From positions 1-35,423 of the IMG/VR virus record IMGVR_UViG_3300003852_000031: a stretch of DNA of 35,423 bases. One strand, written 5' to 3'. Positions 1 through 30,335 of this stretch are shown here, piece by piece; position 1 is the first letter of the stretch, and each line of letters starts with the position of its first letter. Source of the DNA: a virus. The translations under genes and the position numbers were made by a program. The notes beneath the pieces are model-generated. The model saw only the letters and a program-made list of their open reading frames with translations, did no database searches and was not told the DNA's origin.

Positions 1-2549
1 TGCACATCTGCCCGTTTTACTGATGATTCAAATCCTAATGGTGTTGGTAAATAAGAAATTATAGATCTTGGATACTTAATTGCATCAATACCAATTTGTG
101 AATATTCTGTTCCACCAGTACCATCAGTATGAATAAATCCCATCATTGATTTTAATACACCTTGTAATTGTACTAATTCAACAAAACCTTGATATGGTAA
201 ATATTTATAAATCATTTTAATTAACGCACCATTATGAGGTACTCCAATATAATCTAAATCTAAATATAATGTTTGACCCGTAACAACACCGGTTCCTGAC
301 CTTAATTTAATTGTATTAGTAGTAGGATCAGAATCATCTGAATTGTAATCATTATATACACTAACATCAGAAGTTAATATACTTCTATGAGTTATATTAT
401 ATTGACTTGCAATACCTGTTGCAATATATTGAGTTCCAGTTGTATAATGAACCAGAATAAATTGATTTACATGTCCACCACTAGTTTGTCTAAATACTGG
501 AACGTATGAACCACCGCTACCATATAATAATTCAATCGAAGTTGGATCTAAAACAGATGTAATTTTTGCAAAAGAGTATCCACTTGTAGGATGAACAAAA
601 ACATTACTTACTATTGCACTTGGATGTTCTGCTGCAGGCAATGTTGTAGCTACTTCATTTCCTCCACTAGCAGCATCATAAATACCACGTATAAACCACA
701 CATGATTTCGTCTAAATGGTAAACATACTAATCTAGTAGCTGCATCATAATTATTAGCAGATATTGTTCGAGTTGTTCCATCAATAGTTGTCGTTGATGA
801 AATTAATGGATGAATATTTATTGTTTTACTTCTATTATCAACATTATAATTTGATAAATAAAATGGAGGTGTAAAAACAGTAGAATTTCCCATATGACTA
901 AAATCTAACTGTTTAGTATGTCTTGATGTTAATTGTATTGATTTATTCAATAAATCAACTTCTCCTGCAATATTTGGCATTCTTAAAACACCAGTATGCG
1001 GAAAATAAGCAGCAGATACAGTTGGATATGATGAAGCATTAATATAATTTAATTTTAATAATTGATCAGGCGAATATGTTAATCCATAATTTTGTGGATA
1101 AAGTACATCAAACTGTATCCACAATTCCTGATTTGTTAATGAAGCATTAATTCCTAATGTAAAAGTAGCTGCAGCTGTGTCAAGTCCTGCCCATGCTCCT
1201 TGAACTGTTACTAAACCACCACCAATTATATTTTGAAAATAAACTGCCACACTCGTTGATTGAATTACTGTACCTACCGGTGACCCATGAGGCGCTTTAA
1301 CTCTAATTGTATTACCTGCAGTCCAGTTTCCAACTCCACTTACTCTATAAAAATCTTGAGAAGAATCCATATCGCCAATATTTAATCTAAATACTTTTAT
1401 GCCAGAAAAATAACTAGTGTATTTATCAATATCAGCATTTGATGTATCATCACTCCATGCTGATCTAATTCTATCACAAACACTAATAACTGAATAATTA
1501 GTTATACTAGTATTACTAATAGCATCATATTGCAATAATTCTCGTTCACGAACTTTATTTTTACCCATTAATAAATCATTAACTGCAGTTTTTAAAATCT
1601 CATTAGCACTATAATCTCTACTAAGTACTAAATGTCTTAAATCAATAACATCAGTTTCATCAACTGAATTATAAAATAATCCATCAGGTCTATCTGATAC
1701 TCCGCCTATAGCTATACCAGAACCAAATTGGTTCGTTTCATCATTATAAGCAATTGTATTTCTTCTAAAAATAAGTGCTATAGGTATTGCATATGTGTAT
1801 CCATCAATGGTTTGTAATTGCGTTCTTGATGCAAAATCACCATTTCCTGCTCTCCATAAGCCATAATCTCCAATTGCTGCTCCCATATTAGTATACAAAA
1901 ATGAACCAATTGGAGAAATAGCTGCACCTTGACCAAATGTTTGACTATCAAATATATTAGTACGTTGTTTATTTGGAACTGTAACATTTTGTTGTATTCT
2001 TATTCTATATTGAATCTGCACTCTTTTTGTTGATTCACCGGGTGTTGGTAATAAAGCAGGATCAATAATATCATCAGGTAAAATTTCAGAAACTATAGTG
2101 TTTTGTACATTTCCATCTTTATAAATTCCTGCAGATGATGGTTTATGTGTTGTTGTTCCACCACTAATAATTGTTTTCCATACTTCAAGAAAGACAAAAT
2201 CATATCTTTCAGAACTTGAAGCAGCTGGAAGAATTATACTATTATGTGTATTATTAAACACGGGACTAACATTAACTTGACAACCATTAACAATTGCAAC
2301 ATCATCTGACATTACAAACATATTAGAATAAGACACATTTAATGGATCAAATGTAAATAAATCTACTTTGTAGAATCCACTTTGATAATTACTTTTGATA
2401 TAATTTTGTAATCTATTAGACATTATATCAAAATGTAAATTCCAATCTGCATCCATTACAGGTTTTCCATGTTGCCAAATAATGGTGTCAAAAGATCTAT
2501 TATCTGGCTGTAATGTTCTAGATACTGTTAAACCATAATCGGTCGTCAT
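1..2549 (-). CDS. Large virion structural protein, C-terminus beyond left edge
   Basis: The minus-strand frame starting with ATG at 2549 reads open for 849 codons to the left edge, so the gene is partial. I translated it by hand and saw no in-frame stop. It begins MTTDYGLTVSRTLQPDN, then carries a WQHGKPVMDADWNLHFDI segment near residues 25-45. This resembles the N-terminal signature (hydrophobic, GKP-x-hydrophobic-D-x-x-x-N-L) seen in uncharacterised phage virion proteins related to tail and baseplate appendages. The rest is rich in Asn, Thr, Ser and beta-branched residues, as expected for beta-rich fibre or baseplate-associated proteins, and I recognise no enzyme motif. Its ATG overlaps the TGA of the upstream 69-residue gene as ATGA, implying translational coupling. 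A role as a tail or baseplate appendage is inferred from composition and position. Confidence 0.85.
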   Translation of the reverse strand, partial: MTTDYGLTVSRTLQPDNRSFDTIIWQHGKPVMDADWNLHFDIMSNRLQNYIKSNYQSGFYKVDLFTFDPLNVSYSNMFVMSDDVAIVNGCQVNVSPVFNNTHNSIILPAASSSERYDFVFLEVWKTIISGGTTTHKPSSAGIYKDGNVQNTIVSEILPDDIIDPALLPTPGESTKRVQIQYRIRIQQNVTVPNKQRTNIFDSQTFGQGAAISPIGSFLYTNMGAAIGDYGLWRAGNGDFASRTQLQTIDGYTYAIPIALIFRRNTIAYNDETNQFGSGIAIGGVSDRPDGLFYNSVDETDVIDLRHLVLSRDYSANEILKTAVNDLLMGKNKVRERELLQYDAISNTSITNYSVISVCDRIRSAWSDDTSNADIDKYTSYFSGIKVFRLNIGDMDSSQDFYRVSGVGNWTAGNTIRVKAPHGSPVGTVIQSTSVAVYFQNIIGGGLVTVQGAWAGLDTAAATFTLGINASLTNQELWIQFDVLYPQNYGLTYSPDQLLKLNYINASSYPTVSAAYFPHTGVLRMPNIAGEVDLLNKSIQLTSRHTKQLDFSHMGNSTVFTPPFYLSNYNVDNRSKTINIHPLISSTTTIDGTTRTISANNYDAATRLVCLPFRRNHVWFIRGIYDAASGGNEVATTLPAAEHPSAIVSNVFVHPTSGYSFAKITSVLDPTSIELLYGSGGSYVPVFRQTSGGHVNQFILVHYTTGTQYIATGIASQYNITHRSILTSDVSVYNDYNSDDSDPTTNTIKLRSGTGVVTGQTLYLDLDYIGVPHNGALIKMIYKYLPYQGFVELVQLQGVLKSMMGFIHTDGTGGTEYSQIGIDAIKYPRSIISYLPTPLGFESSVKRADV

Positions 2550-2755
2550 TTGATATCTCCGTGTTTATGTATTTGAATAGCTCTTTCTTGAGCTAATGCT
2601 TTTTCTTTAGAAGGATGTCGACCTAATAATTTTTTTCCTTTACTGTCATACAAACAAAATTTACTTGGTTTGCCTTTTTTCTTATCCTTTTGTGGACATT
2701 TCCTGATTATTGATTCTTTGACAAATTCAGATTGTATTTGCTGTAAATGTTTCAT
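2546..2755 (-). CDS. Small basic protein with capsid-targeting-like N-terminus
   Basis: A 69-residue, Lys/Arg-rich protein. Residues 1-14 (MKHLQQIQSEFVKE) match the leader of two other proteins in this window and resemble the T4 internal-protein capsid-targeting sequence MKTYQEFIAE, which is cleaved after its last Glu. The remainder has a W/FC-x-Y-x-x-x-G-K-K-LG-R/K pattern (KFCLYDSKGKKLLGRH, about residues 32-47) followed by SKEKALAQERAIQ. I know that pattern from small phage proteins whose function is undefined. The start overlaps the stop of the FtsK-like gene (ATGA), and its stop overlaps the start of the next gene the same way, so it is made in step with both. I infer a small basic protein packaged in the head, perhaps DNA-binding. 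Function is not shown. Confidence 0.85.
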   Translation of the reverse strand: MKHLQQIQSEFVKESIIRKCPQKDKKKGKPSKFCLYDSKGKKLLGRHPSKEKALAQERAIQIHKHGDIK

Positions 2756-5025
2756 TTACCTAATAATCCTTTTAATAAATTTAATCTGTCCAAAAAATGT
2801 TTCTTTTTAGTTTGCATATTCTTTCTAACATCTTCAGCTGACACTGTTCTTGACAATTCATTAATTTCTTTTTGAGTATCATCATCAACTGAAGATTCAG
2901 GTTCTTCTTCTGGTTCTTCAACTTCCGGTTCTTCACTTAATAATTTTTTTCTTTCTTCTTCTTTTTTAGCAATTTCTTCTTCACGTCTTTTTTGTTGTTC
3001 ATTTCTTTCTTTTTGAGTAATATCACTTTTAGAAATTTCTTCTTCAGTTCCAGTATCTCCAAGTATTTCTTTTATTCGTTTTCGTCTAGCTTCAATTTGT
3101 TTTTTAATATTTGAATATTCATCTTCTGGTTCTTGTTTTTCAATTTCTTCTTTTGGTATTGTAGTTGATTCTTCTTTTGGTTTTATGGATTGCAAAAGAT
3201 CTTGTTTTCCTTGACTCTTTTCACTAAATTTAGTTGATTCATTACCAGAAACAAAACCTGATTGAAATCTCTTTTTCGGTTGACCCTCAGCAGCATAAAA
3301 AGCATCACCGTGACTTAATAAATCAGTAGCATCTGGTAAATCTACACTTTCAGCATCTGCATGTTGATTCAAATGTAATATGACTTTTGACCCTAAATTT
3401 GCTTGTAATTGTCTAGGTATTGCTTTTAATGCAGGTGATTGAGTTGCCAATATAATATTTATACCCGATTGTCTTGCAACAGCAAGCATGTCATCTATAT
3501 AACCTTTAATTTTACTTGCATTTTTATTTACTTCTGGATTTAATAAACTTTTAACCTCATCTGCAACTAAAAATATTTGAGGTATAACTTTTCTTTCTTC
3601 AGGTGCTAATTTTTCAAATGCTACTTTTTCTTCTTCAGTTTTATCTTTTTTATCAATAAATGCATTAAATGACTGTGTATCTTTGAATGTTAATCCTGAT
3701 TTTTTGCTTAATTCTTGTATTTTCTTAAATCTATTTCCACTTTCCTTGTGCAAATTCTGTAATGATTTAATTGCACTATTTTCATCTTTTGCAACAGGAT
3801 CAGCTAAATATTTACTTCCGTCATATAAACCAAATTCATTACCTTTTTTTGCAACATCTAACATAACAAATTTAACATGATCAGAATCCTGCGTTGCCAT
3901 TAATGAATTAACCATAGAATTAATAAATACTGATTTTCCGGAACCAGTTCCTCCTGCAACTAGCATGTGAGGATTTACTTTAAAATCATGTATGATTACT
4001 TCACCATTAGCATCTTTACCAAAAGGTACAACTAATTTTTTAGGATTACTTGACTCATTAACAAACTTGTCACTTGTTAATATATCTTTCAAATATACAG
4101 TATCACGATTTGCATCATCTTTTGGAACTTCAATATTAACCATTCCTGATTTTCTATCTTCAGATATGATTACATCTCGATCTTTCCCAACCATTGAACT
4201 AATAATATTTTTTCCATCATTACTTAATAACCATCTAGTACCTTTAACTTTTGCAACATCATCATCAAATTTTATTTTAAATGTCATAGAATTAGGTGCG
4301 TTAGTTGCCTCGGCTATATTAGAACCTTTAATGTTTGCAGCAGTAAATGATCTACGAATAGCATCAACTGAATGATCAACTTCTTCTATACTGCCCTTTG
4401 ACGGTGGCGGAGGATCATTTAAAAAACTAATATCATTTTTTAATTTACCTTCATTTGCTTTAATTCTATCATTTTTTTGTTGATATTGTTCAGTTTTGTC
4501 ACCTGCTTTATCTAATTCTATTTTTTTCTGATTAATAATTTGTTCTTCAACTTTGTCACTCTTGATTTCATTATTAATTGCTTTATCCGTTGGTTTATTT
4601 TTTAATTCTGTCTTTTTAGCATCAAGCTTTTCCTTTAATTTAGGCTGTTTCTGTTCTCGCTTTATTTTCTTAAGTTCTTCTCTTTGCTTCTTTAATTTTT
4701 CCTGCAATTTTGTTAATTTATCTTCTCGTTTAGTAACAGAACTTACTCCTGAAACGCCTGTGCCTTTCCACTGTTTGTACAACTCTCTAAACAATCGTTG
4801 TTGAGGAGAATTTTTATCATAACCCTTTAACGATTTTATTTTGATACGTGGCTTTTTAGCTTTTAAATCGGGATTTCTAACTTCTCTCTCTCCCATTTCT
4901 TTCAAAAAACTACCAAGATCACCTTTACTGGGCGATAAAACACGAGGCGTTTTAATAGTAGCTGCATCTTTACGAGTATATAACTCTGTCATAAACTCAT
5001 TTTGTACTAAATCAAAATGTTTCAA
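2752..5025 (-). CDS. FtsK/SpoIIIE-like DNA translocase with capsid-targeting-like leader
   Basis: A 757-residue protein. Residues 1-14 (MKHFDLVQNEFMTE) form a T4-like capsid-targeting leader shared with two neighbours. Residues about 100-200 and 620-715 are highly charged and predicted coiled coil. Residues about 295-600 carry an FtsK/SpoIIIE motor: an EVP...VYLKDIL segment, PHMLVAGGTGSGKSVFIN with Walker A at 358-365, a MLDVAKKGNEF segment in place of the usual DPK, Walker B with D489-E490, an ATQSP sensor near 527-531, and L-x-x-GDAFY near 570-577. No transmembrane segments and no winged-helix gamma domain are visible, unlike chromosomal FtsK. A strong GGAGG lies 10 bases upstream of the ATG. 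Known family role: ATP-driven double-stranded DNA translocation. I infer a virion-packaged motor or one acting during head filling or ejection. A cytoplasmic role is the main alternative. Confidence 0.9.
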   Translation of the reverse strand: MKHFDLVQNEFMTELYTRKDAATIKTPRVLSPSKGDLGSFLKEMGEREVRNPDLKAKKPRIKIKSLKGYDKNSPQQRLFRELYKQWKGTGVSGVSSVTKREDKLTKLQEKLKKQREELKKIKREQKQPKLKEKLDAKKTELKNKPTDKAINNEIKSDKVEEQIINQKKIELDKAGDKTEQYQQKNDRIKANEGKLKNDISFLNDPPPPSKGSIEEVDHSVDAIRRSFTAANIKGSNIAEATNAPNSMTFKIKFDDDVAKVKGTRWLLSNDGKNIISSMVGKDRDVIISEDRKSGMVNIEVPKDDANRDTVYLKDILTSDKFVNESSNPKKLVVPFGKDANGEVIIHDFKVNPHMLVAGGTGSGKSVFINSMVNSLMATQDSDHVKFVMLDVAKKGNEFGLYDGSKYLADPVAKDENSAIKSLQNLHKESGNRFKKIQELSKKSGLTFKDTQSFNAFIDKKDKTEEEKVAFEKLAPEERKVIPQIFLVADEVKSLLNPEVNKNASKIKGYIDDMLAVARQSGINIILATQSPALKAIPRQLQANLGSKVILHLNQHADAESVDLPDATDLLSHGDAFYAAEGQPKKRFQSGFVSGNESTKFSEKSQGKQDLLQSIKPKEESTTIPKEEIEKQEPEDEYSNIKKQIEARRKRIKEILGDTGTEEEISKSDITQKERNEQQKRREEEIAKKEEERKKLLSEEPEVEEPEEEPESSVDDDTQKEINELSRTVSAEDVRKNMQTKKKHFLDRLNLLKGLLGK

Positions 5026-5067
5026 TTTATATCCTCCATTTTATATTACACACTTATAAATCATTAA

Positions 5068-6432
5068 TCAATCCCTACAATACAATGACGGTGTTACTTT
5101 AATATTTTGACTTCCAGTTTCCCATAATGGTATTAAATGCATGTACTTTCGTTTTAATCTTCTCCATATATCTGATCGTTGTTCTAACACATTAATTATC
5201 TTATCTGGATAACATAACTTAAAAACATTTATTTTTCTTAATGATTCATCACCAATAGTTTGCTTTAATTCGATATATGTACCTAATTTCCAATATTCAA
5301 AATTATCTAATAATTTAATATCTGGAATATAAGCATGAAAATCTTTATCATTTAATTTAAATATCTCTTTTTCATATTCATAGTGTATATTATTTAATTT
5401 TAACATTCTACAAAAATTAGCTTCTATTGTACTCCTAACAAAATGACCAACATCTCTTCTAAAACCATAATAACCTCTATTTTGAAATATAAGTGCGTCT
5501 GTGTCTAACATTGTTTTAGTTGCAGTAAAAGATGATCTTTCTACAACATCTCTTGTAACTAATGGTGCATTAACAAATATTTTCTGATACATATTAATAG
5601 TAAGTTTATGTTTATCTAAATGTCTAGCAGACATTCGTTTAACACATTTCAAACAATATCTACAATAAATTTTATTGTTACTATCTTGCAATTTGCTTTT
5701 ATTAAATTGATTAATTATTTCTATATAACTATTTATATCAAATTCTTCTTCCCAAATTAATCGTTTATCATCTCTATTAATTTTAATTTCGGGATATTCT
5801 AATCTAAATTGCTTAGTAGTATAATTATGTCGTTTCAAATGACTAGTTGTCATTAAACCAACCCTAGATAAAATTTCATCATTTGTTTCTTTCAAACACA
5901 ATGGACAAACCACAAACTCTTTCAATTGACATTTACTATTTCGTTTTTTATTCTTTCGTCGTTCCAATGTTAATGGTCGACGTTTTTTTCCTGCTTTATA
6001 AAGACTTTCAGAAATTCTCTGTTTATGTTCTTCACTCAACACTTTTATCTTTAGACTATCCCGCATTGACTTACATCTAAATTTTCTTACATCTTCATTA
6101 GACCAACTTGCTTTTGCTGCTTTACTCATCTTTTGCCGACATTCATCATCTTTCAATTTTAATTTCATACTATTTTTAGCAAAAACAGGTGCATTATATT
6201 TATTCTTGTACTCATCTAATGTTAAATTATGCATCTTTTTAATGTGAAAATCCAATCGACGTTTTACAATGTTACATATACGACAATAAATAAATTCCTC
6301 AGTATCATAATCTCTTTTTCCTTTAGGTATTTTTCCTAACTTTTGTTGACAATCTTCACATTGAACTATTGTAACATATTTAGATTCAACCAAGACAACA
6401 TTACCACAGGTCTTGCATTTTCTTTCAAACAT
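5068..6432 (-). CDS. Free-standing homing endonuclease, zinc fingers plus PD-(D/E)XK nuclease
   Basis: The protein has 454 residues from the chosen ATG. A longer in-frame start at 6468 would add 12 residues but lies inside a terminator-like hairpin and has no Shine-Dalgarno. The chosen ATG has only a weak AAGAAAG. Numbered from the longer start there is a CxxC...CxxC knuckle (C18-C40), then three CxxC...HxxxxH or HxxxH fingers with trailing LT-x-x-x-Y segments (C62/C65/H75/H80, C188/C191/H210/H214, C269/C272/H283/H287). NUMOD3-like stretches lie between (about 112-160). The C-terminus has E349, P382-D383 in YIPDIK and E400-L-K402, the PD-(D/E)XK layout also seen in Vsr-like homing nucleases. 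It sits between the 181-residue gene and the FtsK-like gene. It probably cleaves phage alleles lacking it and spreads itself; the target is unknown. Confidence 0.85.
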   Translation of the reverse strand: MFERKCKTCGNVVLVESKYVTIVQCEDCQQKLGKIPKGKRDYDTEEFIYCRICNIVKRRLDFHIKKMHNLTLDEYKNKYNAPVFAKNSMKLKLKDDECRQKMSKAAKASWSNEDVRKFRCKSMRDSLKIKVLSEEHKQRISESLYKAGKKRRPLTLERRKNKKRNSKCQLKEFVVCPLCLKETNDEILSRVGLMTTSHLKRHNYTTKQFRLEYPEIKINRDDKRLIWEEEFDINSYIEIINQFNKSKLQDSNNKIYCRYCLKCVKRMSARHLDKHKLTINMYQKIFVNAPLVTRDVVERSSFTATKTMLDTDALIFQNRGYYGFRRDVGHFVRSTIEANFCRMLKLNNIHYEYEKEIFKLNDKDFHAYIPDIKLLDNFEYWKLGTYIELKQTIGDESLRKINVFKLCYPDKIINVLEQRSDIWRRLKRKYMHLIPLWETGSQNIKVTPSLYCRD

Positions 6433-6448
6433 AAAACTTTCTTCATAC

Positions 6449-6489
6449 AAAATAAAAAACGGATTCATAATAATATTATAAACCCGTTT
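6449..6489 (-). terminator. Terminator-like hairpin overlapping the endonuclease 5' end
   Basis: On the minus strand AAACGGGTT (6481-6489) pairs with AATCCGTTT (6457-6465), nine base pairs with one G-T wobble. The AT-rich loop can itself pair (ATAATATTAT). The right arm runs into TTTTTTATTTT (6449-6459), the layout of a rho-independent terminator for the 181-residue gene. It also covers the upstream ATG candidate of the endonuclease, so it could instead hide that start. Confidence 0.5.
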
Positions 6490-21000: not shown

Positions 21001-22115
21001 CTTTCACTATCAGATCCTTCTTGCGTCGGCCTTATATTTGTTACCTGAAATTGTGTAAATGTAGAGTTTGTAATTGTGCCAGCATCAACATTTGTTATAG
21101 AGCCTGTTTGAACAGATTGTACTGGAGCAGTTACTTCATATCGTTGTGTAGCTTCATTAAAATATTGATCAATTGAAGATATCAACATTTTAGCTTCAGC
21201 CAATGTTTGAAAATTTATGGCAGGCACTGTTGATGTTGCTGTCGTTGACACAATAGTATTTAACGGTACAGTTATTGTTGCTGTTGGTTTTATTATAGTA
21301 TAAAAAACAACTTCACCTATAGATCCAGTTGCAGGCTCTCTAAATGTTTGACTATTTGCTGCAAGTTTGTCAAAAGAAAAATCAATCAAACTTTGTACAT
21401 CTGCATCTACAGTTAAATGTAATGCTGCCTTTAACTGTTGTTTATATACAGAATTTGATACACTGATTGATGATCCAGTATTATTAGGATCATCAATATT
21501 TAACAACGTTAGAAAAGATTGTGACCTCAAAAGAAAATCAATATAAATGTATAAATCACCATAATTAGCAGCATGTGGATCAATATGAATGTCTCTAGTC
21601 ATTGTACCAGGTTTAACATCAAGATCAGGATATCTATCAAGCATTCGACCAATCATTGTTTGAGCTACATCACTTGTAGATCTAACAGGAAAATCAACAA
21701 TACTTGATGTTATTATTATTGGTACATCGCTTATTTCAATAGAAAATAAACTTTCTTCATTACCATTATTAACAGCAGTAATTACATAATATTGTCGTCT
21801 ATTATCAACAAGCCCGCTATGAGTATAAGCATAAATTGATATATTTTGAAAGTCTTCAACTGTTGTTGTAGTTTTTACACCACCTATTACTTGTACTGTA
21901 GTTGTAGAATCAATCACTTTTTGAACAACACTATTCACAACTGTAATTAATTCATTATTTAATTTAGCATATCCACTAACACCACCACCAGAAGTAGTGG
22001 CATTATAAATATTATAACCTTTAATATCAGTTTCAGGATTGGCATCCCATTTTATGATGACTGCATTTCCTGATGATTCTGTAAATAGACCGGTAGGCTG
22101 TGAAGGTCTAGACAT
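18084..22115 (-). CDS. Baseplate J-like protein (T4 gp47 / P2 gpJ superfamily)
   Basis: A 1343-residue protein starting MSRPSQPTG. The ATG at 22115 has AAAGGA six bases upstream; an in-frame TTG further upstream is rejected. Residues about 5-130 are FN3-like (VIIKWDANPETDIKGYNIY). Residues about 145-440 are baseplate J N-terminal and core: RYPDLDVKPGTMTRDI, then RPTQEGSDSESNSNLAFRA near 362-380, a J hallmark. The C-terminal J part lies at about 1035-1120 (VSRHVTADVLV..., DRISQSDVVAVIDDS...VDYVSLP). Between them are some 600 residues of modules: several 'DY..tG.I...GD.V.Y.Y' units, one GSGSFNPWTI unit (about 600-668) and one LPAPL...YYVI unit (about 690-755). Another LPDPL...YYVI unit follows near 1240-1300. 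The gene overlaps the end of the upstream GIY-YIG gene by eight bases. Known role: wedge protein linking hub to rim. Confidence 0.9.
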   Translation of the reverse strand: MSRPSQPTGLFTESSGNAVIIKWDANPETDIKGYNIYNATTSGGGVSGYAKLNNELITVVNSVVQKVIDSTTTVQVIGGVKTTTTVEDFQNISIYAYTHSGLVDNRRQYYVITAVNNGNEESLFSIEISDVPIIITSSIVDFPVRSTSDVAQTMIGRMLDRYPDLDVKPGTMTRDIHIDPHAANYGDLYIYIDFLLRSQSFLTLLNIDDPNNTGSSISVSNSVYKQQLKAALHLTVDADVQSLIDFSFDKLAANSQTFREPATGSIGEVVFYTIIKPTATITVPLNTIVSTTATSTVPAINFQTLAEAKMLISSIDQYFNEATQRYEVTAPVQSVQTGSITNVDAGTITNSTFTQFQVTNIRPTQEGSDSESNSNLAFRAMLAFTGLDIGTLDGYLRTTIGVQYVQDVLVVDAGHPLMQRDYDIVRKQHAYGKVDIYFKGFSEISYTDTFGFVYNGVIDETVVVVVASLPVQWRIQVINPDVSIDDPVYLIQMIENITKSKLYDLTGNFTIKRNAVILPKDQYSMDLITGEMTFDTPLSFGDQIVADYDYKVAITNETVIVLDPQTIQTINNPVALFSEIIYGSRTNNFVVGNLTTSNTIVSISTGLQTVITNDLNLMFSVDEVIELKYDDTHKMQGAVTSYDVMTGILVVNVTSTAGSGSFNPWTISTVGFPVSVITITTGERHIFRTGDKVLVSSPSGILPAPLVADIGYYVICSRLTETGTRQLKLATTIENALAGVAIGFVDAGFGSLVITPDTKVTLVKDLDYTIDYSTGIVTINSALTTQRFYNTFIAVGDMLTADYKYVTTVLNEVVIASASGGEITALLSHDNVVEAILIEADGKTININTHNAINSTIGLLSTDIVRMTYRYRKSPPIIFSNQPVDTIVSIVTANGTVLQEGSGYTFNKVDDILIEGNSVRSQRSVTLLYNPSTGMPEGQLYDFSENVVLAGLDYKSLNKKGIDEHTIVVTDLTQTITYELNNDYLILSAETPFNYVQIARSNTSSISTGQTVIVSYKYGEQMTATYTVNSLIKTIQDKINVSRHVTADVLVKAANQIDVDLEFNVKLATGANTPVVKDQLSTKLFTIFDQKKMGDRISQSDVVAVIDDSADVDYVSLPMTTMKISDGVHIANEVIPNSINWFIYQVGNAIVYKTLAGILRYKTLGSSSDISKFWRVTKDNVDLTLVATPDDVKTFANQAYISSDGSIYLSVNYQQEVVAATDINIVNNTILVSQVWETGTKVQFISTGSLPDPLLPLTDYYVIFLNNIYIRIASSLANAQSGIAIPFINQGTGNHTIVSQISSSVTNFNVTVAYNVHGESGANDIIVSDLDYLNLKSLIINII

Positions 22116-22899
22116 GAAATGTCCTTTCAACTATTTTATTTCTAATTTTTCTTGTTATAATCAATGTCTTAATAATTTTAGATAATTTTTTTCCTTTTTT
22201 TGATTCACCAATTTTTCTTTTTGTTTCTTCAGATAATTTTTTTCCTTTTCTTGACTCACTAATTTTTTTCCTAGCTTCTTCAGACATTTTTTTACCTTTT
22301 TTTGATTCACTAATTTTTCTTCTAGTTTCATCAGAACATGGTCTATTATAAAAATTAGGATTGTTTTTTCTTGTTTCATTCATTTTTCTTTTCACTTCAT
22401 CTGAAAGATGTTTACCAAATAAATAATGATTTTCACCTTTATTTGATTCACTTATTTTCTTTCTAGTCTTTTTTGAATGATGCTTGCCAAACATTGGATG
22501 ATTTTTACCTGACTTTATTTCACTTAATTTCTTTTTATGCTCTTCAGTAAATTTCCTACCCTTTGATGCTATACTTAATTTTTTTCTAGTTTCTTCTGAT
22601 ATTATTTTACCCTTACCACCTTCATTTAAGTTATAACCTTTTTGTGGATTCATAGTATTATGCATTTTTATAAAATACTGTTCAGCTTTATCTAAAGTAG
22701 AGTTGTCTAAAGTATTACATTTTATACTCCACTCAAATTTATCAAACCCATACTTTCTAAGAGCTCTATGAAAATAAAGATCATCATTTTTCATAGCATC
22801 TTTAAAATGTTGAATCCTTCGTTTTTCTAAAGTTCTAGTAGTCTGACCAAAATAAAGTTTTCCGTTTATTTTATTTTTAACTTGATAAATTATAGACAT
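22108..22899 (-). CDS. GIY-YIG homing endonuclease with NUMOD3 array
   Basis: A 263-residue protein. The nuclease domain spans about residues 1-95: IIYQVKNKINGKLYFGQT (the GIY-YIG strands, here IY and YFG), R27, candidate catalytic E73 in KAEQYF, and a closing YNLNEGG. Residues 101-240 hold seven NUMOD3-like DNA-binding repeats (SEETRKKISESKKGKK type), three of which carry longer NHPMFGKHH-type linkers. The C-terminal 20 residues are basic. The start overlaps the stop of the 498-residue gene as TAATG with AAGGA upstream. The stop lies beyond the start of the baseplate J gene, whose ribosome site is within this ORF. That tight fit is typical of free-standing phage homing genes inserted at gene junctions. 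No intron is apparent on either side. Confidence 0.9.
   Translation of the reverse strand: MSIIYQVKNKINGKLYFGQTTRTLEKRRIQHFKDAMKNDDLYFHRALRKYGFDKFEWSIKCNTLDNSTLDKAEQYFIKMHNTMNPQKGYNLNEGGKGKIISEETRKKLSIASKGRKFTEEHKKKLSEIKSGKNHPMFGKHHSKKTRKKISESNKGENHYLFGKHLSDEVKRKMNETRKNNPNFYNRPCSDETRRKISESKKGKKMSEEARKKISESRKGKKLSEETKRKIGESKKGKKLSKIIKTLIITRKIRNKIVERTFHV
22180..22599 (-). repeat. NUMOD3-coding tandem repeats
   Basis: Seven units encode SEE-x-x-K-K-I-S-E-x-x-KG-K. The three nearest the 3' end (about 22180-22330) are near-identical 51-base repeats, visible on the plus strand as TTTTTGATTCAC/TTTTCTTGACTCAC blocks followed by AATTTTTC or AATTTTTT. Confidence 0.8.
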
Positions 22900-24395
22900 T
22901 AATTTCCTTGAAAGAGCGGCTTGTTAAACATTAGTGATGTGTCCAACTGAATAGCTGTCGCAGCTTGAGATACAACAGTAGCATCTATATCATAAAAATC
23001 TGGATCAATATCACTCTGTTCAACAATAATATTACTAAGAAAACTAAAAAATTCTTCATCATCAACTTGTTGATACTGTGTCTGTTGTGTTTGTAAATCT
23101 TTCATCTTCTCACCAGCATCAATAATCTCACCTTTAAATTTCGGTATATAATATTCCGATGGCTTAGCTGTACCAATATAAGATATTAATGATGTTCCAT
23201 ACCATGGATGTGCTGTATTTGTTCCTTTTATTGCTGTTACAAGTTTCAATAAATCTTGCAACATTTTTTGCTCTTTAACCACTGTAATTACATCATGTAA
23301 CTTATCATAATCATAATCATTAACTTGACCAGTTCTTCTACATTTTCTGCATTTTAATATTGTGACTTGATAATCTAATGATATTATATCTGTCGGCACA
23401 TTTTCATCTCTATAATTATATGAAATTGTCACAGTATCAGTTATTTTTGGTACAAATCCTAAATTAATTTCACCTGTTATTGCATCCATATTAACTGGAG
23501 TAATACGTTGTCCATTAACTAATACAGCTACTTGAGTTATCATTGTTGCATTTGGATCTGTTCTTATTTTTGCTTTTGGTGGAATTATAGGTTTATGTTG
23601 TGTATAAAAATAATTTTCAATACCAGTAAATTGATTTGACACATCTTCATCCTGAATCAAAAATTGATTTGTTTGTTTTTGTTGATCAAAAATAATCTTA
23701 CTTACACCAAATGTGTTATCAAATGTTAATTGCCACCCATCCTTAAATAATGGATAATAAAATATTGCAACAGTTTGATTCGTTGGAATAACCTCTTTAA
23801 TTGTTATTCTACCTGTTGTTGCGTCAACATTCTTAACATGCGCCCTATATATATAAGATACAGTCACAATTGCACCAGCAACCGGCGCATTTTTTAATAT
23901 TATTTTACCAAATATAGGTTCAATAGAATCAATATCTACAATAACAGAATTAACTTTGACTGTAATATCATTTTTTGTTAGTTGTGTTGCATATATGTCA
24001 TATTTTGACATTAAAGGTCTATGTTGTGTCACTAAAAGTGTATCTATACCTGTAAACTGAGCTGAAGCATCTTCATCAGTAATAGTTACTTGTACAATTA
24101 CATCATAAGGTCTTGATGCCAATATTTTTCTATTTGAACCATCATAAATTGGTATTTTAGATGCTACATAAATAGTATTTGATCCTGTAATTTGTGATGT
24201 TACATCTTCTGTAAATAAAAGTTCTGTTGTGTTATTTCTATTTAAAGGCACACCATCAACTCTAACAATCATACTATCAGGATTTGCAACAATAGAACTA
24301 ATTGTCACTGTTTTGAAATCAGTATCTTCAACACAGTATTCATCCTCAGATACTTTATGATCACAATATCGTAAAAGTTTTGTATCAAATGACAT
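22899..24395 (-). CDS. Baseplate wedge protein with gp25/W-like C-terminal region
   Basis: A 498-residue protein. The first 340 residues are beta-rich with three repeats of an 'EDVS-x-QFTG-x-x-x-x-x-x-TQHKP' unit (about 60-85, 106-128, 248-270), and 'D..TG.I.....VTVSYIYR' units like those in the J protein. A CRKC pair (C349, C352) introduces a region with VVKEQKMLQDLLKLVTAIKG then HPWYGTSLISYIG (396-408). This is the pattern of phage baseplate gp25/W-type proteins ('LLQ..K..LT..G.N..HP.YG..L..LIG'). The C-terminus (about 425-498) looks helical with a Gln/Asp/Glu-rich patch. It precedes the J gene, as W precedes J in P2, with only the GIY-YIG gene between them, and overlaps the previous stop as TAATG. 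The wedge role is inferred from the motif and order. Confidence 0.75.
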   Translation of the reverse strand: MSFDTKLLRYCDHKVSEDEYCVEDTDFKTVTISSIVANPDSMIVRVDGVPLNRNNTTELLFTEDVTSQITGSNTIYVASKIPIYDGSNRKILASRPYDVIVQVTITDEDASAQFTGIDTLLVTQHRPLMSKYDIYATQLTKNDITVKVNSVIVDIDSIEPIFGKIILKNAPVAGAIVTVSYIYRAHVKNVDATTGRITIKEVIPTNQTVAIFYYPLFKDGWQLTFDNTFGVSKIIFDQQKQTNQFLIQDEDVSNQFTGIENYFYTQHKPIIPPKAKIRTDPNATMITQVAVLVNGQRITPVNMDAITGEINLGFVPKITDTVTISYNYRDENVPTDIISLDYQVTILKCRKCRRTGQVNDYDYDKLHDVITVVKEQKMLQDLLKLVTAIKGTNTAHPWYGTSLISYIGTAKPSEYYIPKFKGEIIDAGEKMKDLQTQQTQYQQVDDEEFFSFLSNIIVEQSDIDPDFYDIDATVVSQAATAIQLDTSLMFNKPLFQGN

Positions 24396-24859
24396 TAGGT
24401 CACAATCCCTTCTGTCTTTAAATACCTATGTTTATTGTCAAACAATGAATTAATTGTTTCGATATTAGTTCTAAAATCTGACTTAGTAATCCGTAACAAA
24501 TGAATTCTTTCTTGCAATTGTTCTATTTTATCAAGAATTTTTCTATTTCGATGTTCAATATTATCTCTTACTTTAATATTTGAATAAAAAGGTTCTTTTA
24601 TTCTCTGTACTAAAATAGCAGAATCAATGTCATCAACTTGTGTAGGTACTACTCTAAAAAAAGATTTTTCAAAAGTTTTAAACTTAACATTCATACGATT
24701 GGAATAATCTGATAAATCAGATAATGTTTTCTGTAACTGGCCTATCTCAAAAATCATATGATTAATTTGTGCATCTACACTATCAAGTTGACTTTGCAGA
24801 TACGTACGTAAAGATTCAAGTTCTTGTTTTGAAAATATTCCCAAAAAATCAAATGCCAT
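24395..24859 (-). CDS. Coiled-coil protein of the baseplate cluster
   Basis: A 154-residue protein. Heptad-like hydrophobic spacing runs over about residues 10-65 (ELESLRTYLQSQLDSVDAQI and following) and 95-140 (RNRKILDKIEQLQERIHLLR), separated by a short FFRVVPTQVDDID loop. This predicts a helical hairpin. There is no Cys and no membrane segment. The ATG follows an AGAGA site within a leader holding inverted repeats, and its TAA overlaps the ATG of the 498-residue gene. I do not recognise a named family. Position before the W-like gene suggests a tail or baseplate assembly part. Confidence 0.8.
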   Translation of the reverse strand: MAFDFLGIFSKQELESLRTYLQSQLDSVDAQINHMIFEIGQLQKTLSDLSDYSNRMNVKFKTFEKSFFRVVPTQVDDIDSAILVQRIKEPFYSNIKVRDNIEHRNRKILDKIEQLQERIHLLRITKSDFRTNIETINSLFDNKHRYLKTEGIVT

Positions 24860-24995: not shown

Positions 24996-25754
24996 TTAAT
25001 CGTACATCTCACCTTCTCGATGTTGTGCTAAAGATTTAAGATCACTAATAAAATAACTGTCAACTTTTGAAATTTCAGGACCCCAGTCACCAGATCTTAG
25101 TACTGCTTTTTTATGTTCTTTTGTTGGAATAACCATAAGAGTCATACCGTCAGGATCTACACCACCATGTGGTCCCTCACCAACAGAAAATAATTGTTTG
25201 GGATATTTCTTCTTCAACTTAATAATTCTATTTACCATTCTTTTAGGACTAGTATGTGACATATCAAAATCAAAAGTTTTTAAACCTTTTACTAATTTTT
25301 GATCAGCATCTTCTAATTCTTTATTTTCTTTTGTTAAAATACTAACAACAGTATTTTTACTATATTTCTTATATGAAAGTATAATTTCATTTCCATCTTT
25401 ATTCCATGTTCTGACGCCAATATGGTAATCAGTTTTAGGTAATTTCTTACTTTTTCCATAATGTTCATTAAATTGTTTAAATAATTCTTTATATTTTCTT
25501 TTAGATTTATCTGGAAACGATTCACGTATTGCATAATCTCCATCACCTTCAGGCTCATTTTGCAATAATGATTTAATAGATTCAGAATGTTCTTGCGTGT
25601 CTTCTCCAGAAACTTCACGTTTTGGTCTCGCAGTTAACCGTCTTTTACTTTTCCTATGTCTTTTTAAATAAGCCCTTTGTTCATCTAAAGACAAATCATC
25701 CCATTTTCTTGCTTCTTTAACAAATTCTGATTGAATTATAGCCAAATGTTTCAT
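24996..25754 (-). CDS. Basic protein with capsid-targeting-like leader
   Basis: A 252-residue protein. Residues 1-14 (MKHLAIIQSEFVKE, then A) are the best match here to the T4 capsid-targeting sequence MKTYQEFIAE-A. Next is a KWDDLSLDEQRAYLKRHRKS segment (about 17-36) then KRRLTARP, a basic helical motif I know from phage structural proteins of no set function. The remainder (about 95-252) is a Lys-rich alpha/beta region with VVSILTKENKEL, FDFDMSHTSPKRMVNRI and GPHGGVDPDGMTLMVIPT; I do not recognise a fold. The ATG has AAGGAG six bases upstream. I infer a processed internal head protein, possibly ejected with DNA. It lies inside the baseplate cluster, not with head genes, which is odd for such a role. 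Confidence 0.85.
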   Translation of the reverse strand: MKHLAIIQSEFVKEARKWDDLSLDEQRAYLKRHRKSKRRLTARPKREVSGEDTQEHSESIKSLLQNEPEGDGDYAIRESFPDKSKRKYKELFKQFNEHYGKSKKLPKTDYHIGVRTWNKDGNEIILSYKKYSKNTVVSILTKENKELEDADQKLVKGLKTFDFDMSHTSPKRMVNRIIKLKKKYPKQLFSVGEGPHGGVDPDGMTLMVIPTKEHKKAVLRSGDWGPEISKVDSYFISDLKSLAQHREGEMYD

Positions 25755-25801: not shown

Positions 25802-28800
25802 TTAAAAAAACAAATTCAAAAAGCCTTGAATCTTATCTACATTCGGTCCACCAATCAATAATACCAATCCAGCAGTATAACCATTTTGACCTGAATCAGG
25901 ACCTCCAATTGCAGATTTAACCTGAGCTTTTATTCTTTCAACACCACCAGTTTTAACATCAATTCTAAGAATATAAAAACCTGCATTCGGAGAAAAAATA
26001 GTCTTTATAGTATCAATAATTTTTTCAATTTGATCTATAAAATCTGCCAATGTATTAATCTTAACAGTCAACAAATCTATAAATTGTGTTACAGATTCAG
26101 ATCCTTTTTGAATTGCATCAAGTTCTGAATTAACCCAAGCTTCTAATGATTTAATAAAATCCTCAACGGGTTTAAATAAACTTTGTGCAGTCATATTCAT
26201 CCAATTTGGGTATGTACCAGTAACACCTTCTTCTATTGATGTATAACCGGCACAAGAACCTGATGAATTACCTATCGTTGGCAAACAATAATTTGGATCA
26301 TTTCTATATTGCTTATTATAATATTGTACTTCACCACCTATTGTTCCATCCTGACATAAAACAGTATCAAAAAATAATCTATTTGGCACACATTTAGTAC
26401 CTAACTTTGTATAACCGACATTTAAGCATGCGTTTCCACTATCATAAACACATCGTTTATTTACATATTGTTCACAAATTTGTTTATTGACACCATTAGC
26501 ACACAAAATTTCATCAAAATTTATATTTTGTTTTCTACAAGCTGGTGAATAAGCCTTTATAGTATATTCTACGTATATATCATCACCATTTTGATAACCA
26601 ATACTTGAAATATCACTAATTGTTAATATAGTTTTATTATTCTGTCTAGCTATTAACAAATCCCAACCATAAGTTAACTTTGTATCATTTAGTACTGTTA
26701 TAAATCGATCATATCCAGGAGCATTTGTATCAATTTTGCTCGTTTCCACATCAATGAATCTATCATAGTTAAAATTTAGATCATTACTTTTCATTCTACG
26801 TATAGTTTCACTCAAATTTCTAATTGAGATATATCTCATGTCAATCATATCATCAATTGTAAAAGTAAATGTATTTACTTGTTGAAATCCTGCATTAATT
26901 TGTATTTTTGTACTAACAGAAAAATTACTAGATTGCTTCGCAATACCACTTCTATTAATAGATTTTACAATTACATTACTAAGTTTTTTGATCACAGTTG
27001 TTTGTGACTTATCAATATTACAAGCAAAATTTGCACATCTTTCAAAAATAACAGAATCTATCGATGGTTTTGCAAATAATTTTGATGAACCTACAACTTC
27101 ATTTGATAATACACTACCACTACTCGATCCCATTGTAGTTCTAATAGTATAATAATAATTTGTACCATTTTCAACACTTAAATCTTGATACTCATATCCT
27201 AACGGCATTGCAGGTTGAACATCTTTGCTCCAACCAACAGCAAAATTGCTAAATCTAAGTTTATATTCAGATGCTTTCACACTACCTATCGGTTTTAACT
27301 TTTGTTTTGTTTGAGAATCAATAACATCACCTCTATTAGATATTATTGTCTTATTATCTGTATCATAATAATCTTGTTGAGCAATTATAGCATTTGATTG
27401 TAGTTGAGTCCTGTAAATATCAAATCCAGAAACTAAATCAATTAAATTTTGTTTATGAAATATTCCAGATATACTAAATGTTATAAATTCCGGCAATTCC
27501 CATCGTACTATAACTTTTGAACTTCCAGAAACAGCTGTAACATTTTTTGGTTCTTGAACCTGTGGTTGCCAATCTATTGACGTAAATATTTTCTGTAATG
27601 ATTTTATTCCATTTATCACGTCAACAAGGTTTCCAGAATCAATAGCAATAATATATGCACCTACATCCGCTGATTCAGAAAATTGTGGTCGTTTACTATC
27701 AAAAATATCATCAAAAGAATCAGTAACTCTTTTCTTAAAAGCTTCAGATCCACCTCCAACACTTGCCAAAAATTTTGCAAATCCAGGTTCAGCTTCTACA
27801 GTCGGATCATTATAATTTATATTTGGAAATACAGGCAATAAATAAACACCAGATGCAGCTAAATCATTAACATATTGTTCAATAGCTTTTGATAATGCAG
27901 TCAATATTGCTTTTAATGCACTTCCAGTATCAACCAATAATACTTTAACAACACTTAACACACTATTAATTAATTTTAATATTGTCTTCATTGGATCTAT
28001 TACATTTTTAATAGCATCTGCTGTTGATATAATAGACTTCGGTAACATTGACTGTAAATCAAATGATTCCCATGCACCTTCAGGAACAACTCCAAGACCT
28101 TTTAACACAACATCTACTTGAGGTCGATCTATATCACTACTATTTATTCGAATTTTTCCTAAAAGATCACCTGATGTACTTGGTGCAAATATTATTGAAT
28201 AAAACGCTGAACCGCCAGGAGCTATAGTTGTCGGTATAAATCCTGCAACACTATACGAAGATGAAGCACTATCTATAACACTAATATTAGTAACACTCAA
28301 TGTATCATTACCAATATTATTAATCGTCACAGTTCTTTGACTTGAAGTTTTAACATTAGTATCTGCAAATAATATTTTATCTTCAACTTCAATAATTGGT
28401 TTATGAACACCAGTACCAGTGATAGTAATAATAATTTGACTATTTATAGGATCATCACATGTAATTCTTAATTTAGCTGTATATGACACTGTATCTAATG
28501 GTTTGAATATTACATCAAAATTATAGAAATTATTTGCTAAAACAATAGCTGATATTGGAGAAATTACAAAAACATCTGATATTAATTGTATTGAAACAAT
28601 CAAATCAACACTATTAATGTTTTGTATTGACAATATATGCTTACTTTCAATATTAGTAGGTTGATTTCCAAAATTTATATCTGATGTATCAACTAAAATT
28701 TGAGGATATATACCTTGACCAGTGACATGAATTGATAAATCATTTAGTGAATTACTTTGTACAACAATATCTTGATCCACCAATGCATCATCAGTAGGTT

Positions 28801-29611
28801 GAAAAAATATGCCTAAAGTATAAATATTTCCAGGATTAATACTAAAAGGATAACTCTCATTTACAGAAAATGGCAAACTAAAATTTATGTTTGAAACTGT
28901 AATTACAACATTTCCTGTGTTCTTAAGTTCAACTTTTTGCTCAATTTTTTGACCAACTTTTGTTTCAAATTTTGATGGTATACTATTTAAAAATAATGAT
29001 ATTATTGGTTCAATTCCTGCGCCAGAACAAACTATTGGATCAATCAATATATTTGCAGTAAAAGTTAATTGAGCAGCTATAAGTTGCTCAACTGTAGTAG
29101 GAGTAAAAGTTACAGCAACAACGATAGATTCACCGCTAACAACTTCAAAACTTGTTTGACTAATAGTTATATCAGGATTTAGCAATGCTTGAATGTTTGT
29201 TATATTTAAAATCGAACCATTTGTAGCAATATTAGACACAGTCATTGATAAAGTTAACAATTCACCAATAACAACATCTCCAAAATTAAGAATTCCTGGA
29301 TCAATAGATACAATGGGTTCTAATATTACAGCTATTGCATCGATAATAACATCGGGACCAGCATTATTTGAAATAGTTATTGTAGCAGATTGATCAGTAT
29401 TTGCAGTATATACAAATGTAATTTGCACCCAGTCATAAGCAGCAATAGTAAAAGGTACAGCATTAGTATTAAAATCTACACTTGAAATATTTATATTAGT
29501 GATATCAACGGGATTATTACTAGTATTATATAGCGACAATATTTTTGATGCCGAATATCCTTTAGATACTGGGTCAAAATCAATTACAGTTAATGATGGT
29601 GTTACACTCAT
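25802..29611 (-). CDS. ASH/Hydin-repeat tail protein with FN3-like and Cys-rich parts
   Basis: A 1269-residue protein. Residues 1-510 hold about five ASH/Hydin-like (choice-of-anchor D) beta-sandwich repeats, with the pattern 'FG...G.....T..I.N.G...L..TNI...PG.S....V.F.P......L.I......V..G.G'; the clearest are about 100-200, 305-400 and 405-505. A hydrophobic helical stretch (about 520-590) and an FN3-like part (WQPQVQEPKNVTAVSGSSK, FDIYRTQL...YYYTIR, about 680-845) follow. Nine Cys lie at 1025-1120 (1025, 1037, 1046, 1054, 1062, 1074, 1086, 1109, 1120). The C-terminus is helical (about 1140-1210) then Gly-rich. No signal peptide is seen. Its ATG overlaps the TGA of the 66-residue gene (ATGA). 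Position and repeats point to a tail-tip or baseplate-hub adhesin. Confidence 0.85.
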   Translation of the reverse strand: MSVTPSLTVIDFDPVSKGYSASKILSLYNTSNNPVDITNINISSVDFNTNAVPFTIAAYDWVQITFVYTANTDQSATITISNNAGPDVIIDAIAVILEPIVSIDPGILNFGDVVIGELLTLSMTVSNIATNGSILNITNIQALLNPDITISQTSFEVVSGESIVVAVTFTPTTVEQLIAAQLTFTANILIDPIVCSGAGIEPIISLFLNSIPSKFETKVGQKIEQKVELKNTGNVVITVSNINFSLPFSVNESYPFSINPGNIYTLGIFFQPTDDALVDQDIVVQSNSLNDLSIHVTGQGIYPQILVDTSDINFGNQPTNIESKHILSIQNINSVDLIVSIQLISDVFVISPISAIVLANNFYNFDVIFKPLDTVSYTAKLRITCDDPINSQIIITITGTGVHKPIIEVEDKILFADTNVKTSSQRTVTINNIGNDTLSVTNISVIDSASSSYSVAGFIPTTIAPGGSAFYSIIFAPSTSGDLLGKIRINSSDIDRPQVDVVLKGLGVVPEGAWESFDLQSMLPKSIISTADAIKNVIDPMKTILKLINSVLSVVKVLLVDTGSALKAILTALSKAIEQYVNDLAASGVYLLPVFPNINYNDPTVEAEPGFAKFLASVGGGSEAFKKRVTDSFDDIFDSKRPQFSESADVGAYIIAIDSGNLVDVINGIKSLQKIFTSIDWQPQVQEPKNVTAVSGSSKVIVRWELPEFITFSISGIFHKQNLIDLVSGFDIYRTQLQSNAIIAQQDYYDTDNKTIISNRGDVIDSQTKQKLKPIGSVKASEYKLRFSNFAVGWSKDVQPAMPLGYEYQDLSVENGTNYYYTIRTTMGSSSGSVLSNEVVGSSKLFAKPSIDSVIFERCANFACNIDKSQTTVIKKLSNVIVKSINRSGIAKQSSNFSVSTKIQINAGFQQVNTFTFTIDDMIDMRYISIRNLSETIRRMKSNDLNFNYDRFIDVETSKIDTNAPGYDRFITVLNDTKLTYGWDLLIARQNNKTILTISDISSIGYQNGDDIYVEYTIKAYSPACRKQNINFDEILCANGVNKQICEQYVNKRCVYDSGNACLNVGYTKLGTKCVPNRLFFDTVLCQDGTIGGEVQYYNKQYRNDPNYCLPTIGNSSGSCAGYTSIEEGVTGTYPNWMNMTAQSLFKPVEDFIKSLEAWVNSELDAIQKGSESVTQFIDLLTVKINTLADFIDQIEKIIDTIKTIFSPNAGFYILRIDVKTGGVERIKAQVKSAIGGPDSGQNGYTAGLVLLIGGPNVDKIQGFLNLFF

Positions 29612-29808
29612 ATTTTTGACTTCAATTCTTTTATTTTGTTATTAAATATTTCATCATCAATTTGAATCACACCTAATTTTTTTAAATTCTCTAACTTATG
29701 TATCAATTGTTCTTGTTCATGTACTAAAGCTTCTTTTAAAGACTTTAATAATGGTTCTAAAATATTATCTTGAAGGCCTAATGATGTTTTCTTTTCCCAA
29801 GTAGCCAT
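29608..29808 (-). CDS. Small helical protein
   Basis: A 66-residue, mostly helical protein (SLKEALVHEQEQLIHKLENL, then KKLGVIQIDDEIFNNKIKEL). AAAGGA sits five bases upstream of the ATG within the last codons of the 170-residue gene, and its TGA overlaps the next ATG as ATGA. The pair of small genes before a very large tail gene recalls tail-assembly chaperone placement. I see no slippery sequence linking the two, so that role is not supported. Function is unknown. Confidence 0.8.
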   Translation of the reverse strand: MATWEKKTSLGLQDNILEPLLKSLKEALVHEQEQLIHKLENLKKLGVIQIDDEIFNNKIKELKSKI

Positions 29809-29810
29809 AT

Positions 29811-30323
29811 TTATCCTTTTGTCAATTCAGCAATTTTCTTTTTAAGTTCAACTATTTCCAATTTAGCTTTCTCTAATTCCGTTTTTTCATTTATACATAT
29901 TGGCAATAATGCATCAGATTGTTCTATTGATAAAGACTCTGGCAACAAATTTTCATCTATCAGGAATGGATCAATTTCAACTTCTTCATTCATTGCAGCT
30001 TGCACATCCATGACTGAATATTCTTTTATTAAAGTTTCTAATTCTTTACCAAAATTATCCATGTCTTGTAGCACATAATTATTATCCATTATAGTCGGCA
30101 TGTTTTTTTCATTTTTTATTGAATATTTTTGACATAATATTCGTCGTTTCTTTTCAAATTCAACTAAAGGTCTTTCAATATCAATTATAACAGTCATCTC
30201 TTCATGAAATCTTACTTTATTTTTAGAAATAGCTATAGCAAATTTTGTATTAACTTTTTCTTTACTAAAACTATTTATTATTACATGTAATTTTTTCAAA
30301 CTATTTCGACTAATTTTAATCAT
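29811..30323 (-). CDS. Small acidic-tailed protein, possibly DUF1617-like
   Basis: A 170-residue protein from the chosen start. Two ATGs lie six bases apart; the AAGGAG (30330-30335) touches the upstream one but is six bases from the ATG at 30323, so the latter is used. Residues about 1-75 are basic (SRNSLKKLHVIIN... IERPLVEFEKKRRILCQKY). An acidic middle (NEEVEIDPFLID) and a C-terminal Lys/Glu coiled coil (EKAKLEIVELKKKIAELTKG) follow. The 'F-x-x-x-R-x-x-L-x-x-KY... GKELETLIKE... EVEI' pattern resembles DUF1617-type phage proteins found near tail genes. That match is from memory and weak. Confidence 0.8.
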   Translation of the reverse strand: MIKISRNSLKKLHVIINSFSKEKVNTKFAIAISKNKVRFHEEMTVIIDIERPLVEFEKKRRILCQKYSIKNEKNMPTIMDNNYVLQDMDNFGKELETLIKEYSVMDVQAAMNEEVEIDPFLIDENLLPESLSIEQSDALLPICINEKTELEKAKLEIVELKKKIAELTKG

Positions 30324-30329
30324 ATTCAT

Positions 30330-30335
30330 CTCCTT
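30330..30335 (-). promoter_or_regulatory. Ribosome binding site deciding the 170-residue start
   Basis: AAGGAG on the minus strand lies directly against the ATG at 30329 and six bases from the ATG at 30323. Only the second has workable spacing. The site overlaps the stop codon of the preceding 1413-residue gene, which implies coupling. Confidence 0.8.

Follow-up and report, generated by a model that had tools for sequence, protein, structure and literature searches.

Targeting sequences of phage T4 are propeptides of 10–20 residues, which bring proteins, even foreign ones, into the prohead core and are removed by a protease (PMC5694885, PMC3012670, PMC7411985). The T4 proteins ipII and ipIII start with MKTYQEFIAEA, cut between MKTYQEFIAE and the following A, and Alt starts with MELITELFDE, Glu10 being present in all of them. 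In phage SPN3US, N-termini are common to the paralogous ejected proteins gp53 and gp54 (PMC5694885). PubMed Central was searched for earlier descriptions of a tag of this kind in jumbo phages, and only the T4 and SPN3US work came up. For the FtsK motor, residue roles were taken from an FtsK–DNA structure (PMC7321959) and from simulations (PMC9410874).

The stretch of DNA analysed here (35,423 nucleotides, hereafter the window) is identical to a 416-kb viral contig of an uncultured jumbo phage (G001, IMGVR_UViG_3300027896_005002) from position 345,398 on. The nearest annotated kin of its head and tail proteins, all of them distant, are Bacillus phage G, Tunturiibacter phage Tunturi_5 and an uncultured 485-kb phage. 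Gene calls were longest open frames and gene counts are therefore approximate. G001, whose head module lies at 16–31 kb, also encodes a portal protein, a terminase large subunit (28447–30357) and a head-maturation protease (22896–24581), the last recognised by a PHROGs match (phrog_18299, E = 8.5e-17), while the protease models PF03420 and PF04586 gave no match.

FtsK-like ORF and its gene context

The original prediction described a membrane-free FtsK/SpoIIIE motor with Walker A and Walker B motifs, lacking a gamma domain and lying among tail genes, and on these points it was borne out. The ORF matched PF01580 (FtsK_SpoIIIE) over residues 311–531 (E = 1.6e-28, 100.1 bits against a curated cut-off of 24) and solved FtsK structures at E = 3e-28, and both Walker motifs were located (Table 1). 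No transmembrane segment was found in the ORF, the highest 19-residue Kyte–Doolittle mean being 0.91 and located on the P-loop, and a Pfam scan (E ≤ 0.01) gave no match to the FtsK gamma domain. The AlphaFold2 (AF2) model was built from only five sequences and reached a pLDDT of about 70–90 over much of the motor, with low values elsewhere (mean 59.9); when it was searched with Foldseek, FtsK motor structures ranked first (6t8b, TM by target 0.77). Residues 592–757 were modelled mostly as low-confidence charged helices.

Table 1. Positions in the window of the features of the FtsK-like ORF and of two further leader-bearing ORFs.
Feature	Position	Strand	Remarks
FtsK/SpoIIIE-type ATPase, 757 aa	2752..5025	-	TTG start; without membrane segment and gamma domain
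Ribosome-binding site GGAGG, upstream of the TTG start	5033..5037	-	sequence
N-terminal leader, residues 1–15 (MKHFDLVQNEFMTEL)	4981..5025	-	divergent copy of MKHLAxIQxEFLKxA
Basic segment, residues 39–90 (SFLKEMGEREVRNP...KIKSLK...LYKQWKG)	4756..4911	-	conserved; restricted to the FtsK family of the window
Charged, mostly helical region, residues about 95–205, K/E-rich	4411..4743	-	AF2 helices 98–126, 128–138, 148–175, 178–190, low confidence
Alpha-beta FtsK motor, residues about 210–600	3226..4398	-	Pfam, structure matches (6t8b)
Walker A GGTGSGKS, residues 358–365	3931..3954	-	
Walker B D489–E490	3556..3561	-	
Arginine finger R518 (R620 of P. aeruginosa FtsK)	3472..3474	-	
Phosphosensor T528–Q529, then S530 replacing DNA-gripping R632 of FtsK	3436..3444	-	
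C-terminal charged helices and basic C-terminus (LDRLNLLKGLLGK)	2755..3189	-	without gamma domain
69-aa ORF	2546..2755	-	4-bp overlap with FtsK; leader in the window copy, absent from orthologues in five related records
252-aa protein	24996..25754	-	full leader and second module (RKWxxLSxxEQ..YLKRHxKSKRRLT); insertion among tail genes

The FtsK-like ORF is surrounded by tail genes and adjoins, besides the 69-aa ORF, a 181-aa tail-region protein; the same tail-operon position was found in all six records holding the gene. Two insertions missing at these places in the relatives were also observed: a 466-aa zinc-finger/endonuclease-like ORF directly upstream of FtsK (window 5068–6468; five related records compared), and a GIY-YIG homing endonuclease (phrog_314) within the tail operon (window 22108–22899). 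Elsewhere in G001 (56589–58499), one frame combines HNH endonuclease and helicase matches with an intein-like start (LCFTGDTKVPL). The candidate role of sole genome-packaging ATPase of the FtsK/HerA kind (PRD1 P9, A32 type) was ruled out by the terminase large subunit of the phage itself.

A leader common to unrelated proteins

The capsid-targeting-like leader from which virion packaging had been predicted proved to be real; what the original prediction had missed is its spread over tens of proteins throughout the lineage. The consensus MKHLAxIQxEFLKxA starts about 31 proteins of G001, and a profile search found 93 ORFs with the leader in eight records: 32 in G001 (including one C-terminal copy), 19 in G006, 14 in G003, 10 in G002, 8 in G005, 5 in G008, 3 in G007 and 2 in G004, the counts of G004 and G008 overlapping, as these are near-identical phages. 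When N-termini were clustered without any pattern, 30 genes with 30 unrelated bodies were obtained in G001. In G006 there were 21 such genes, which fell into 20 body families; at the same threshold, phage G had no more than 5 genes and Tunturi_5 no comparable group. A short N-terminal peptide common to otherwise unrelated proteins is thus present, as in T4-type targeting.

Among 92 leader copies, F11 was found in 91, Q8 in 81 and E10 in 89, the last figure being biased upward, since part of the training set was chosen by a pattern requiring E10; in the three leaders without E10 the position is occupied by Q (two) or D (one). The leader aligns without gaps to T4 ipII and ipIII, with M1, K2, hydrophobic residues at positions 4 and 7 and E10 in common, a match which is to be read as resemblance and does not imply homology. 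The helical moment of the leader (1.35 against 0.78 for shuffled sequences) is strong, and cell-division FtsK is membrane-located, both of which would suit an amphipathic membrane-binding helix that substitutes for the FtsK transmembrane anchor and holds the motor at the host membrane. This explanation appears very unlikely: Q8 and E10, among the most conserved residues, are polar and point to specific protein recognition, and enzymes that are soluble and have no obvious task at the membrane bear the same tag.

The tagged enzymes include a type IB topoisomerase and an M17 leucyl aminopeptidase (G001 208201–209517 and 337189–338655, respectively), and a protein related to the head-morphogenesis protein phrog_324 also carries the leader. 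Many carriers have in addition a second module (RKWxxLSxxEQKxYLKRHPKSKRRLT), which occurs together with a variant leader in tRNA nucleotidyltransferase, and also without a good leader, as in a sigma-70-type factor encoded beside the terminase gene. The leader might instead be an intracellular localisation tag, directing proteins to a replication or assembly site or to a phage compartment, with FtsK acting in the producing cell on concatemers, segregation or late assembly. The location of FtsK in the tail operon and the action of some carriers on nucleic acids (topoisomerase IB, tRNA nucleotidyltransferase) are in its favour. We nevertheless consider it rather unlikely, as a short N-terminal tag with Glu10 on tens of unrelated proteins is most like capsid targeting, and the aminopeptidase and the many small proteins without recognisable function are better accounted for as a cargo set.

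On FtsK itself, the leader was found in all six records holding the gene (the window and five others), with no homologue lacking it, so that the predicted pairing of leader and motor held in the relatives. K2, Q8, E10 and F11 are invariant in the FtsK leader. Of the six copies, that of the window (MKHFDLVQNEF) is the most degenerate, its orthologues scoring higher. With a scoring model built without any FtsK copies, the score of the window leader was equalled or exceeded by 17 of 16,511 background start peptides, the highest of which appear to be leader variants left in the background. The occurrence of the leader on the 69-aa neighbour in the window only (Table 1) shows that gain or loss of the tag can occur without a change of body, and that the tag is modular. 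Among orthologous pairs of tagged proteins, which are not independent events, 50 have the leader in both members and 15 in a single member, variant leaders being seen in several of these 15.

No leader was found in cellular genomes, and cultivated phages gave only weak partial matches, to glycosyltransferase genes of Erwinia and Yersinia phages. Neither the leader nor an FtsK of this clade was found in phage G, Tunturi_5 or LR745208. In phage G (NC_023719.1, L162–L186), ten ORFs, one of them near the portal gene (gp17), start with a KRLIKK-like sequence, which may possibly be a second, unrelated N-terminal tag; two of these gave weak matches to PARP-type ADP-ribosyltransferases, one is ParB-like and one SLOG-like. 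Mass spectrometry of phage G virions is in the literature (cited in PMC8570332).

Motor residues and a proposed packaging model

Walker A, Walker B (D595/E596), the arginine finger (R620) and the phosphosensor (T630/Q631), in P. aeruginosa FtsK numbering, are kept in all five distinct sequences of the clade, Walker A reading GATKSGKS in three of them. Loss of the arginine finger was considered and rejected once R620 had been correctly placed. With the ATPase residues intact, ATP turnover would be expected. At the positions of the DNA-gripping residues R632, K643, K657 and R661 of FtsK, the window protein has S, Q, H and E. In the clade, R632 is replaced by Ser in 5/5 sequences, R661 by Glu in four and Ala in one, and K643 by Gln in four, K657 being variable; the FtsKs of Bm15, Bobby and a faecal phage, with which the clade was compared, retain R632 and K643. 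The replacement in the clade counts against DNA as the substrate. The ATPase part of the predicted DNA-pumping ATPase stands, and the pumping part is weakened by the replacement of the residues that hold the DNA phosphates in FtsK.

The replacement of R632, K643 and R661 would fit a motor that moves protein and not DNA, like the type VII secretion ATPases EccC and EssC, for instance one that loads or unfolds tagged proteins at the prohead or at the tail. In agreement with this, the region of the DNA-binding loops, and the segment after the grip residues (GVPDA in relatives), resembles that of EccC/EssC. However, the overall similarity of the window motor is higher to FtsK (168 bits) than to EccC (87 bits), the clade falls with FtsK in the tree (the support of 83/91 refers to the clade itself), DNA-bound FtsK structures give the top fold matches, and DNA could be gripped by other basic residues. 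We regard protein as a distinctly improbable substrate; this reading concerns the substrate and is compatible with virion packaging.

The best explanation of the leader is that it acts as a capsid-targeting tag and that FtsK is packaged in the virion, which we hold to be somewhat probable from the resemblance to T4 capsid-targeting sequences in length, position, amphipathicity and Glu10. FtsK would be a late product destined for the virion, a hexameric ATPase of the alpha-beta kind that starts, over some 15 residues, with one copy of the amphipathic, Glu10-containing tag seen on tens of proteins with unrelated bodies. This tag would dock the protein on the prohead core or scaffold, as in T4, and might in some cases be cut after Glu10 by the head-maturation protease of the phage. 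Uniform cleavage at this site is unlikely given the three leaders without E10 and one C-terminal copy (AKHFATIQGEFIKEARS), in a short ORF (G001 216621–217031), which is the sole non-N-terminal copy found. The motor would then enter the cell with the genome, alongside the tagged topoisomerase IB and peptidase, and assemble there. It would hydrolyse ATP in order to displace or reshape a polymer, for which the incoming DNA is the simplest candidate. We infer that the gene is expressed late, that its product is packaged, cleaved, ejected and forms hexamers, and that it acts on DNA. That a packaged motor uses ATP to move the phage DNA is possible, and would need both packaging and DNA as the substrate.

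Evidence against this explanation as a whole includes the degenerate FtsK leader of the window and the replaced DNA-grip residues. In addition, the bodies of tagged proteins are not significantly more basic than other proteins, and no class of late-promoter motif stood out upstream of tagged genes in the AT-rich intergenic DNA. The head-maturation protease itself gave no significant leader match, its resemblance to the leader (KHGAIFSIVSNNFIKSASEW) being visual.

For the phage-G-like lineage as a whole, we consider it an evenly balanced proposition that one modular tag of about 15 residues, acquired and maintained independently of the body, loads 20–30 different proteins, including an FtsK-type motor and topoisomerase IB, into the virion, to be delivered along with the genome. 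The genome-wide tag, rather than the single motor, is the interesting part. If this is true, the idea of T4 capsid targeting, which there covers a handful of proteins, would widen into a delivery code used across a genome, with a sequence rule for predicting the injected proteins of jumbo phages, and the leader would serve as a handle to load proteins into phage heads. This would also be, to our knowledge, the first known tailed phage to inject an FtsK-type motor.

Comparison with known systems

The leader shares with T4 IPII, IPIII and Alt its place at the extreme N-terminus, its length of about 10–15 residues, Glu10 and its presence on several proteins. It differs in the number of carriers, a handful in T4 against about 31 here, in having enzymes as presumed cargo, and in the residues before the presumed cut (I-x-E in T4, Q-x-E here). 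The propeptides of SPN3US and phiKZ likewise belong to jumbo phages with a head protease; however, they are mostly at least 100 residues long, one sequence being common to few proteins.

With bacterial FtsK (6t8b, 2iuu, 2ius), the window ATPase has in common the motor fold, Walker A and B, the arginine finger and the phosphosensor; unlike it, it has no transmembrane and gamma domains, its DNA-gripping residues are replaced, and it is tagged at the N-terminus and has a basic segment of its own. Phages of Bacillus (BM15) and of Mycobacterium (Bobby), among others, also encode FtsK-like motors, but these keep R632 and have no such leader, and the two whose neighbours were read do not lie among tail genes, unlike the FtsK of the window. 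EccC and EssC are FtsK-family ATPases with similar sequence around the DNA-binding loops, and differ in being membrane-bound, in having several motor domains per chain and in their lower overall similarity to the motor of the window.
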